A stretch of 23,485 nt of DNA from a virus. The stretch lies in the IMG/VR virus record IMGVR_UViG_3300042298_002883, positions 1 through 23,485 of that record. One strand, written 5' to 3'. A program made the translations under genes and the position numbers. Every line of letters starts with the position of its first letter. Within the stretch, counting starts at the first letter, position 1. Shown here in pieces: positions 19,051 through 21,592 of the stretch. Under the pieces are notes generated by a model. That model did not search any database and was not told where the DNA came from. It saw nothing but the letters and a program-made list of their open reading frames with translations.

Positions 19051-19491
19051 ATGCTGTATCAATACAAAATGACTGGTGGCCTGGTTGAGGTCGTCTCCAA
19101 GCATGGAGATGGCATCTTGATGTGCCTCGATTCCCAAGACGAGGTTTTGTACATCGAGGAGAGTGAGCTCACTCCTCACCTTGAAGCCACAAACGAAAAA
19201 ATTCGTACTGAAGAACGTCTTACGGCAGTTCTTGAAGCAGAGGGGGTCAAGCCTGCCAAGCCGACCACGAAAGAAACATTTCCTCTGGATGTCCGGATTA
19301 ACATCAACACTGCCAGCGCCAGGCAAATTGCAGATTCTCTCCCTGGAGTCGGATTGAAGACAGCCCGTGACATCAAGGATTTGCAGACATCCATGCCAGG
19401 GGAAAAATTCCTTAAGCTGGAGCAATTAAAGTCAATTAAACGTGTGGATTGGGACGAAATTTTTAAAGAAAATTTAGTACGGGTTGAGTGA
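19051..19491 (+). CDS. Helix-hairpin-helix protein (146 aa)
   Basis: Residues 85-108 (INTASARQIADSLPGVGLKT) form a helix-hairpin-helix motif of the ComEA type, with the PGVG hairpin that contacts the DNA backbone. The N-terminal 45 residues look like a small beta barrel (GDGILMCLDSQDEVLYIEE), followed by a helical linker. Placed between capsid and neck-like genes, it may act at the head-tail connector or bind packaged DNA. The start ATG lacks a clear ribosome site. Confidence 0.7.
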   Translation: MLYQYKMTGGLVEVVSKHGDGILMCLDSQDEVLYIEESELTPHLEATNEKIRTEERLTAVLEAEGVKPAKPTTKETFPLDVRININTASARQIADSLPGVGLKTARDIKDLQTSMPGEKFLKLEQLKSIKRVDWDEIFKENLVRVE

Positions 19492-19532: not shown

Positions 19533-19562
19533 ATGTGCCCATTACGCATTTCTTTCGTGTAA
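19533..19562 (+). promoter_or_regulatory. Possible 9-residue leader ORF coupled to the next gene
   Basis: ATG at 19533, preceded at short distance by AAAGG, opens a nine-codon frame (MCPLRISFV). Its TAA shares its last A with the ATG of the next gene (TAATG). This could couple translation. Alternatively GTG at 19535 may start the downstream gene directly. Confidence 0.3.
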
Positions 19563-20041
19563 TGCAACTCGACACTTTTCTCAAATCTAAAGTTCGCTGG
19601 CACCTGGGATATAACCTGACATCGGTCCCTGCTGGTGATCAAGCACGACTTGAGGAAGCTGTCAACAATATCCAAGATTCGTTCTGGTATAGCAAGATTG
19701 TCGAACAGATCAGTCGGTGCGATGAAGCTGAAAAACGCACTGACATGACTGGCAGCGTGAACAATAATACCGTCCCCCGTAATCGTATTGAGAGTATCGC
19801 AGGTGATGTTGATCGAACGATTGCAACCTCTGACTTTAGAGACACGCTGAAAACCTGGACGGCAATCTATTTATACGAGACGGATCGACTCGCTCTCCAT
19901 CTCTATGTTCCGAATTACCGAAACCCCGAGCAAGCTCGATACCGATTTAACCGGGAAGGCGCTGAATTCATTCAAGCGCTTCCTGGTCCTGCCGACACTG
20001 CTGTGGGGACTAGGATCATGTTTGCTACCAACTTCCGTTGA
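19562..20041 (+). CDS. Putative head-tail connector or neck protein (159 aa)
   Basis: From ATG at 19562 the product starts MQLDTFLKSKVRWHLGYN; a GTG start at 19535 would add nine residues. Notable parts are LEEAVNNIQDSFWYSKIVEQ, a polar loop, and DFRDTLKTWTAIYLYETDRL. The C-terminus contains FNREGAEFIQALPGP. Helical proteins of about 160 residues after the capsid genes are often head-closure or connector proteins, an inference from position. It ends four bases before the lytic transglycosylase start. Confidence 0.6.
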   Translation: MQLDTFLKSKVRWHLGYNLTSVPAGDQARLEEAVNNIQDSFWYSKIVEQISRCDEAEKRTDMTGSVNNNTVPRNRIESIAGDVDRTIATSDFRDTLKTWTAIYLYETDRLALHLYVPNYRNPEQARYRFNREGAEFIQALPGPADTAVGTRIMFATNFR

Positions 20042-20045
20042 AGCC

Positions 20046-20627
20046 ATGAGTCAGTTAAGCCCTCAACAAATTGCTTCATTGCTTCAGCAACAAGGTGTTG
20101 CTAAAGAAAAAATTCCTACGATGACTGCTATTGCTTTGGCAGAATCTAGCGGACGCCCCCAGGCTTTTAATCCACAAGGTTTAGACAAATCTTATGGATT
20201 ATTTCAGGTGAACATGTACGGGGGCTTAGGTCCTGCCCGTATGAAACAATTTGGATTAAAAAATGAAAAAGAGTTATTTGATCCAACAACAAATGTTAAA
20301 GCAGCAAAACAGATTTTAGGTAGCCAAGGATTAGGTGCTTGGTCTGTTTATAAAAGTGGTAAATATAAAGAGTTTTTGCCGCAGGCTCAACAAGCTGCTC
20401 AAGGATTGGGTCAGCCGTCTCCCGAACAAAAACCACAACAAATCTCTGCCGCGCCAAAAGGAAACACGTACATTATTTACGGTGACGGGGAAACCGAAGA
20501 TCCAGCATTAAATTTTTTACGTGGTTACAAAGATAAAGTTCAACCACAGTTTCAAGGGATTGATCCGGTGGCGCTGTTAACGAAAGCTTTTTCTCAAACA
20601 CCGAATTATTTAGGTGATCAAGCATAA
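20046..20627 (+). CDS. Lytic transglycosylase, virion-associated candidate (193 aa)
   Basis: An SLT/lysozyme-fold domain covers residues about 20-120. AIALAESSGRPQAFNP holds the catalytic Glu33. DKSYGLFQVNMYGGLG matches the S-x-G-x-x-Q motif. KAAKQILGSQGLGAWSVYK is the usual end of such domains. I choose the start MSQLSPQQ at 20046 because it follows the previous stop; an in-frame upstream start would overlap that gene. After a Pro/Gln linker, residues 139-193 (GNTYIIYGDG to QTPNYLGDQA) match the end of the next protein. It degrades peptidoglycan during entry or exit. Confidence 0.85.
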   Translation: MSQLSPQQIASLLQQQGVAKEKIPTMTAIALAESSGRPQAFNPQGLDKSYGLFQVNMYGGLGPARMKQFGLKNEKELFDPTTNVKAAKQILGSQGLGAWSVYKSGKYKEFLPQAQQAAQGLGQPSPEQKPQQISAAPKGNTYIIYGDGETEDPALNFLRGYKDKVQPQFQGIDPVALLTKAFSQTPNYLGDQA

Positions 20628-21293
20628 ATGGCAGCCACAACAACAACTAGCGTCGGTCAAGTAATCTCTCCGTCAGAGGACATTTATCCAACTACTGGAG
20701 CACATCTTGATGTACGAGTCTTAAAAGACGGAAAATACATCGATCCTGGTACGATCCGTTCTTTGCTAACTCGCTTAAAAGTTGGTAAAGAACAAAAACC
20801 ACTGTGGCAACAAGTTGGACAGGAGTGGAAGCCCAGCTACGCTGTTACATCTGGATATGGGAAACGGGATGCTCCTACGAAAGGCGCGTCCACATTCCAT
20901 CTTGGACAGGATTATGGGATAGGAGCTGGAACACCACTTTCATGGGAGGGACCAGGGGAGTACATCCCAGGGCGTGGTTATAGCACGATTAAAACATCCG
21001 ATGCTCAAGGTCAACCTTACGAAGTTCGTTTACTACATACAAAACCAGGAAAAGCGGCAAATATTTTAGGCGCAGCTCCACCACCCCCACAACTTCCACC
21101 TGCACAACAAGCAGGGGGAAACACGTATATCTATGTCGGTGGTCGTTCCAAGAAAGAAGATTCTCCGGAGGATTTTCTTTCTTCCTACATCAGGGACTCG
21201 CTTTTTCAAGGTACACCAGAGATTAAATCTACATTTAATCCAACTGCTATGCTGCAATCTGTGTTTGCACAGACCCCTAACTACATGGTGTAA
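20628..21293 (+). CDS. M23-like endopeptidase with shared C-terminal module (221 aa)
   Basis: The central region TSGYGKRDAPTKGASTFHLG, followed by QDYGIGAGTPL, matches M23 metallopeptidases. H91 and D95 (HLGQD) would bind zinc. The second motif reads LLH (H137), where HxH is usual, so the first His of that pair is missing. An N-terminal HLDVRV (H26, D28) is typical of a phage subgroup, from memory. After a proline-rich linker, residues 164-221 (GNTYIYVGG to QTPNYMV) match the end of the preceding enzyme. It starts directly after that gene's stop. Confidence 0.7.
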   Translation: MAATTTTSVGQVISPSEDIYPTTGAHLDVRVLKDGKYIDPGTIRSLLTRLKVGKEQKPLWQQVGQEWKPSYAVTSGYGKRDAPTKGASTFHLGQDYGIGAGTPLSWEGPGEYIPGRGYSTIKTSDAQGQPYEVRLLHTKPGKAANILGAAPPPPQLPPAQQAGGNTYIYVGGRSKKEDSPEDFLSSYIRDSLFQGTPEIKSTFNPTAMLQSVFAQTPNYMV

Positions 21294-21592
21294 TGAGATT
21301 CGCAGCTGTCCCTGGTTATTATCCATCTTTCCCTGTTACCTACGGAAATCTGTACGGTGACGGAAGCATGACCACTGCTGGTTTCTCAGATCCATTTAAT
21401 ATGCAACGGTCCGAGAAACACCAAACTTGTCCGCACGTAGTGGCTTACAATGGTATTGAAGAGCCTCGTTTTCAGCTCAACAATCCAGCGTATTACCGCG
21501 AAGTCATTCGCTCCCACGCAGACCCTGTTCCTCCCGTGGAGCTGAGCCGCAATCCTGTACAAAGCGACTTTTATGGCATATACAAAACCTGA
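21293..21592 (+). CDS. Hypothetical protein (99 aa)
   Basis: The start overlaps the previous stop as TAATG, so translation is coupled to the peptidase. The product is aromatic- and proline-rich (AAVPGYYPSFPVTYGNLYG, NNPAYYREVIRSHADPVPP). No domain or catalytic motif is recognised. It opens the chain of tiny genes that runs to 23262. Confidence 0.6.
   Translation: MRFAAVPGYYPSFPVTYGNLYGDGSMTTAGFSDPFNMQRSEKHQTCPHVVAYNGIEEPRFQLNNPAYYREVIRSHADPVPPVELSRNPVQSDFYGIYKT

Follow-up and report, generated by a model that had tools for sequence, protein, structure and literature searches.

In cellulosomes, different enzyme heads are linked to one short C-terminal docking module, the dockerin. Two adjacent hydrolase genes in the stretch of viral DNA analyzed here (IMG/VR record IMGVR_UViG_3300042298_002883, 23,485 nt, the whole of which we call the window) resemble this arrangement in combining varied heads, linkers and one short C-terminal module. 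In contrast to dockerins, however, the window tails have no apparent calcium-binding repeats, neither of them has a Pfam match that would identify a dockerin domain, and a scaffoldin was not found.

A second comparison is with the internal proteins of phage T4, in which a conserved tag, the capsid targeting sequence (CTS), is carried by highly diverse cargo that is sent into the head and delivered with the DNA (PMC3012670; PMC12373910). In both systems the tag is conserved and the cargo attached to it, encoded in the same loci, is highly variable, and the tail described here is indeed a constant tag on variable cargo at one locus. By this analogy, the window system would most plausibly work like the T4 CTS. 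The T4 tag, however, which directs its protein to the prohead core and is cleaved off by the prohead protease, is N-terminal and its cargo consists of anti-restriction proteins, whereas the window tag is C-terminal in every case, much longer (about 55 aa), carried by two hydrolases and copied between both. As it is not N-terminal we have not filed it as a CTS, and the comparison leaves sequence relationship aside.

Virion-associated lysins are peptidoglycan hydrolases that usually lack a wall-binding domain (PMC6024856). The likeness to the window is that of peptidoglycan-cutting enzymes coded among structural genes, which in the window is known from gene position. The window enzymes would belong broadly with this class, and we infer that they are present in the virion. 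A virion-associated lysin is often one part of a tail or tape measure protein, or else a single internal protein, whereas the window encodes a pair of small, separate enzymes that share a tag and have heads that can be swapped. The same lineage includes Synechococcus phage S-EIV1 (KJ410740) and its sister clade, which likewise have two hydrolases near the gene for PHROG 29158 and heads swapped over constant tails. They differ from the window in having another tail family, and in that the M23 peptidase precedes and the second hydrolase follows the PHROG 29158 gene.

Gene neighborhood and domain layout

Judged by its proteins, the window is one of a group of uncultured freshwater viruses among the S-EIV1-like cyanophages. 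Its major capsid protein is 70% identical to that of S-EIV1, its portal-like protein matches PHROG 20475 (6e-208) and its TerL matches PHROG 38; a distant blastn search of cultured phage genomes, with the window's 3′ end as the query, gave zero matches. The two hydrolase genes lie directly 3′ of the PHROG 29158 gene, which has 467 relatives in IMG/VR, within the head/neck (capsid/neck) gene cluster. Also among the head genes is a conserved helix-hairpin-helix-like protein (NINTASARQIADSLPGVGLKTARDIKDL, 19051-19491), which has no PHROG match. Below, the first and second hydrolase positions are called slot 1 and slot 2, and related loci are given L numbers. The features are:

19535..20041, + strand: conserved upstream gene, PHROG 29158 (phrog_29158, E 7.7e-59), in a neck/head-completion-like position
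20046..20627, + strand: slot 1 protein, with a predicted lytic transglycosylase (LT)/lysozyme-like head, a P/Q-rich linker and tail 1 (Pfam SLT_3 5.2e-13, SLT 6.2e-8)
20046..20425, + strand: swappable catalytic head 1, SLT_3 type in the window (zero DNA similarity to L028 in 20045-20425)
20426..20459, + strand: linker 1, right breakpoint region of the head-1 swap (95% DNA identity to L028 from 20426 on)
20460..20624, + strand: tail 1, 55 aa, GNTYIIYGD / ED..LNFLRGY / IDPVALLTKAFSQTPNYLGDQA (tail-versus-tail score, shuffles, tail HMM)
20628..21293, + strand: slot 2 protein, with a predicted circularly permuted M23 metallopeptidase head, a P/Q-rich linker and tail 2 (matches to an S-EIV1 homologue and 3slu)
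20628..21064, + strand: swappable catalytic head 2, permuted M23 in the window and M15-like in L028 (zero DNA similarity to L028 before 21065)
21065..21116, + strand: linker 2, right breakpoint region of the head-2 swap (93% DNA identity to L028 from 21065 on)
21117..21290, + strand: tail 2, 58 aa, GNTYIYVGG / ED..EDFLSSY / FNPTAMLQSVFAQTPNYMV (tail-versus-tail score, shuffles, tail HMM)

The model of the slot 1 protein has a lysozyme fold (best Foldseek match 2fbd, 7e-5), and from this fold and the SLT_3 and SLT matches a peptidoglycan-degrading catalytic domain is predicted. The first-pass annotation had counted its residues from an ATG at 20046, a start that is borne out by the heads of relatives, which begin within a few codons of the stop of the upstream gene. 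A longer ORF starting at 19905 overlaps the conserved PHROG 29158 gene in another frame and was rejected, since its signal-peptide-like stretch is that gene read in another frame. The conserved open frame at 19905-20045 (MFRITETPSK...SVEA), which lies over the 3′ end of the upstream gene and resembles an LT signal peptide, most likely exists only because that gene is conserved, and it can easily mislead gene callers. These observations bear on the possibility that the two proteins are late, lysis enzymes whose tail targets a holin or a membrane export partner. Such a role would suit peptidoglycan hydrolases whose location in the virion is putative. However, the genes sit between head/neck genes, and the conserved upstream extension that resembles a signal peptide is the neck gene in a different reading frame. 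In S-EIV1, moreover, a separate lysozyme gene lies away from the hydrolase cluster. We regard a lysis role as very improbable.

The slot 2 protein has an S-EIV1 homologue (55% identical) annotated as peptidase M23. The canonical M23 motif order (HxxxD, H, HxH) is not found in the window head; H91xxxD95 and H137 are present, and the equivalent of HxH is the N-terminal H26-L-D28 (TGAHLDVRV, with D for the last H). When the family profile was aligned with the solved M23 structure 3slu, positions 70-117 of the profile corresponded to 227-277 and positions 20-41 to 320-341, that is, in swapped order; the second piece is insignificant alone, though its motif TGPHLxxxxxxxGxxxxP is plain. H26, H91, D95 and H137 are invariant in the family and D28 is nearly so, and the conservation of H26/D28, H91/D95 and H137 fits what would be expected of a zinc site in which HxH is replaced by HxD. 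On these motifs we take the head to be an M23-derived circular permutation, not a canonical member, and a predicted peptidase. Foldseek gave zero M23 matches for the peptidase model, a result that is uninformative because the aligner is sequential and the chain is permuted. No relatives of the peptidase were found in 84,980 bacterial and archaeal species genomes. The permuted head is also encoded by L032 (23380-24126), and Acinetobacter and Moraxella phage tape-measure/tail proteins align over the same permuted order. Permuted M23 domains may be widespread and missed by Pfam.

The paired tails and their distribution

The first-pass annotation had proposed that both proteins end in the same tag of about 55 residues, copied between unrelated enzymes. 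We found the tails where it had placed them, at residues 139-193 of the LT (20460-20624, counted from the ATG at 20046) and residues 164-221 of the M23 protein (21117-21290). They begin with common DNA, GGAAACACGTA, of which the window contains exactly two copies, at 20460 and 21117. The BLOSUM62 local alignment of one tail with the other scored 85, well above shuffled sequence (mean 21.7, sd 4.3, maximum 59 in 20,000 shuffles). The enzyme cores alone scored 36 (shuffle mean 31.6, maximum 58), which is within the shuffle range and therefore indicates that the cores are unrelated. In their DNA, tail 1 and tail 2 share short matches only, and the window copy is therefore old. Across both proteins the tag combines a short strand (motif G-x-T-[YF]-I), an amphipathic segment containing FL..Y, and a last helix with [FI]-[DN]-P-x-x-[ML]-L-x-x-A-F and the end QTPNY. 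Together with recent copying between both genes in relatives, described below, the homologous tails and unrelated heads uphold the proposal.

The tail had also been described as unlike any recognised wall-binding domain, in agreement with our searches, in which zero Pfam matches to either tail and no predicted fold were obtained. Up to E 5, neither tail matched a curated wall-binding family (LysM, SH3b, PG_binding and others) or any other family in Pfam, and a tail profile had no significant relative among solved structures, the matches being weak and irrelevant (best 0.022). Two AlphaFold2 models were made. One covered the LT and M23 proteins joined into a single chain by reading the intervening stop as Q (alignment of 56 rows), and the other covered only the M23 protein (32 rows). 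The catalytic parts were confident, mostly 75-87 for the LT and 85-97 for M23 in the single run. The tails had pLDDT values of 31-55 and were modeled as a short strand and two helices, packed neither on each other nor on the heads. Such low confidence fits a peptide that would fold on binding, and may also reflect a shallow alignment.

Scans of IMG/VR with the peptidase, the PHROG 29158 gene and the S-EIV1 peptidase yielded 207 loci having the PHROG 29158 gene. Among the distinct loci whose downstream sequence extends for at least 1.7 kb, both tails are present in 62, one tail in none, and neither in 21; the latter all belong to the S-EIV1 sister clade, with its different gene order and different tails. 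The first-pass annotation had named homologues with only one tailed enzyme as evidence against a shared module. All of the distinct loci that have the window gene order and are complete downstream (62/62) carry both tails, and no premature stop removing a tail was seen among them. Matches of an iterated tail HMM were confined to the two ORFs 3′ of the PHROG 29158 gene, and 14 larger records contained no convincing third tailed protein, the extra matches scoring <13 bits. Because the tail alignment was too variable for a scan of the collection, we used a degenerate DNA pattern for AFxQTPNY on all IMG/VR contigs. It hit 53 stretches, in which the in-frame tails are all on the two hydrolases; the remaining stretches look like chance. 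The expectation that other enzymes would carry the tail thus holds in part, as different enzyme families occur in the same two gene slots and no protein besides these two has it.

Lysin C-terminal domains often bind the wall, and a host could drive the co-variation of both tails, as would suit a cell-wall- or cell-surface-binding domain. The lack of Pfam matches, of a predicted fold and of a significant relative among solved structures speaks against this, as does the finding of the tail on no other hydrolase in the larger records searched, and virion-associated lysins usually do without such domains (PMC6024856). A wall-binding tail therefore appears most unlikely.

Exchange of heads and copying of tails

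The heads fall into six unrelated clusters. Slot 1 holds SLT_3-type heads (38 distinct), SLT and SLT-like heads (22), SleB-like heads (7) and lambda-lysozyme-like heads (4), the last matching the solved lambda lysozyme 1am7 at 4e-11. The SleB-like label is a motif reading, to which a match to PHROG 12490 'endolysin' (3e-6) adds support for L058 only. Slot 2 holds permuted M23 heads (50) and M15-like heads (17), the latter with a weak match to 1lbu (0.022). No head type crosses slots, and each phage therefore has one glycan-type and one peptidase-type enzyme. A strict pairing of one glycosidase with one peptidase per phage is thereby shown at the level of predicted activities.

Comparison with L028 places the exchange of heads at the nucleotide level. 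The window and L028 are 99.2% identical up to 20044, without similarity in head 1, where L028 carries an SLT head in place of the SLT_3 type, and 95% identical over 20426-20615 (linker and tail 1). In the second gene similarity is nil in head 2, where the L028 head weakly matches the D-Ala-D-Ala carboxypeptidase 1lbu (E 0.022), and 93% from 21065 (linker and tail 2); tail 2 differs at 1 of 58 residues beside unrelated heads. The head-1 pattern is repeated in L091 versus L094 and in L009 versus L008. These comparisons show that heads have been exchanged between viruses, with breakpoints at the gene start and in the linker. The left breakpoint of the head-1 swaps is the 3′ end of the PHROG 29158 gene, which serves as the cassette anchor. 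Breakpoints at a conserved upstream gene and in the linker might also be expected if the tail were mainly a recombination anchor, that is, repeated homologous DNA for head exchange with little protein function. However, across the family the tails have diverged to about 40% protein identity and yet keep the motif pattern, as in a constrained protein segment and unlike a DNA anchor, and the two window tails are too dissimilar in DNA to recombine. We find this explanation hardly credible.

In S-EIV1 and its close relatives, the permuted M23 lies 5′ and the second hydrolase 3′ of the PHROG 29158 gene; in S-EIV1 itself these are AHV82231 and AHV82234, respectively. In the second hydrolase, nearly the same tail follows an SLT-like head in L116, a SleB-like head in L117 and a lambda-lysozyme-like head in L118. 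Second-hydrolase tails of the sister clade (L032, L106-L136) form another, unrelated family and are constant under swapped heads. The tails of both hydrolases resemble each other in S-EIV1 (z = 8) and L125 (z = 5.8), and in several other sister-clade pairs this similarity is not significant. The principle of a constant tail and a variable head thus appears to be wider than the tail family of the window, with strong matching of the two tails seen only in the window's clade.

A single duplication followed by independent evolution would leave one slot change in the tail tree. With 123 tails, the tree obtained requires 8, of which 7 are forced by well-supported branches; with so short a tail, individual forks are weak. 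In several places, tails from the two slots cluster together according to phage lineage (L063/L087/L091/L209; L065/L058; L054/L056/L060; L174/L180/L181/L182), and one tail type, TYNIY..SPADI..AI..AA, occupies both slots in L063/L091/L209. The last 153 bp of both genes are 96.7% identical in L180 and the last 151 bp are 90% identical in L174, beside unrelated heads in each case, and copying between the genes has therefore been repeated and, in some lineages, recent. Taken together, this pattern shows paralogous tags that apparently stay matched by repeated copying while the cargo changes. The Mantel correlation between tail 1 and tail 2 distances (r = 0.81) is not counted as evidence, since common descent of the phages would by itself produce such a correlation.

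Exactly two tails per phage, always in adjacent genes, co-varying and recently copied, are also what one might see if tail 1 and tail 2 bound each other, as a heterodimer or mixed oligomer, to make a bifunctional complex with no third partner. However, the AlphaFold2 model of LT and M23 as a single chain (56 rows) contains no packed tail pair (pLDDT 31-45, pTM 0.40), and the two tails of L180, nearly identical over the last 50 residues, would favor homo-oligomers over specific pairing. We consider mutual binding of the tails unlikely.

A putative docking role for the tails

Our preferred reading, which we hold to be probable, is that these are paired modular entry enzymes whose C-terminal tag serves for docking or packaging, through a single virion partner common to both. 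The enzymes would be located in the virion, have this partner in common and be used at entry. The swapping of heads together with the co-variation of tails is best explained by docking, either in the virion or to one partner. We favor it because of the tail homology, the 62 of 62 double-tailed loci, the head swaps, the co-variation and the unfolded tails, and also because of the position in the capsid/neck cluster, the separate lysozyme gene of S-EIV1, the constant tails that the sister clade shows independently, and the likeness between the two hydrolase tails of S-EIV1, although these are of another family. Tail co-variation could also arise from gene conversion alone, without a shared partner.

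As we picture docking, each enzyme would be built of a peptidoglycan-cutting head that can be swapped, a flexible linker rich in P and Q and, at the C-terminus, a constant tag of ~55 residues, with a glycan-cleaving head always in slot 1 and a peptide-cleaving head always in slot 2. The tag would fold upon binding one common virion partner, possibly a scaffold/core, portal-proximal or ejection complex. Both activities would be loaded at one site and delivered together, and the wall would be opened during DNA entry. The tag would have to fit a lineage-specific partner, and the head would be free to change if the division between glycan and peptide cutting is kept. A more specific version, which we offer tentatively and with some doubt, is that the S-EIV1-like virion has a dedicated socket for two interchangeable cartridges, one glycan and one peptide cutter. 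Both would be inserted by one co-evolving C-terminal plug that is re-copied between the genes to fit both, the cutters being changed by head swaps at the linker. If true, docking would make the tail a short, naturally occurring and transferable means of loading enzymes into or onto virions, and would amount to a plug-and-play exchange of entry enzymes in which the division of labor (one glycan and one peptide cutter) is kept. It also makes testable how an abundant, poorly known lineage of freshwater cyanophages opens the host wall.

No change linked to tail type is visible in the capsid, portal and neck genes. The capsid, neck and helix-hairpin-helix genes are about equally conserved between lineages of different tail types, and the partner, if the window encodes it at all, is therefore probably to be found among the more variable structural proteins.

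Two further observations concern neighboring genes. A 99-aa gene directly 3′ of the peptidase (21293-21592) is missing in the TYN-tail lineages L091, L094 and L098 and in L137. As a candidate tail partner it was rejected, being missing also in QTPNY-tail lineages (L084, L088, L056) and thus not cleanly tracking tail type. In the S-EIV1 record KJ410740, the capsid gene (match 60859-61989, + strand) appears to be misannotated, since the annotation at 60784-62010 consists of a minus-strand hypothetical protein and a short plus-strand one.
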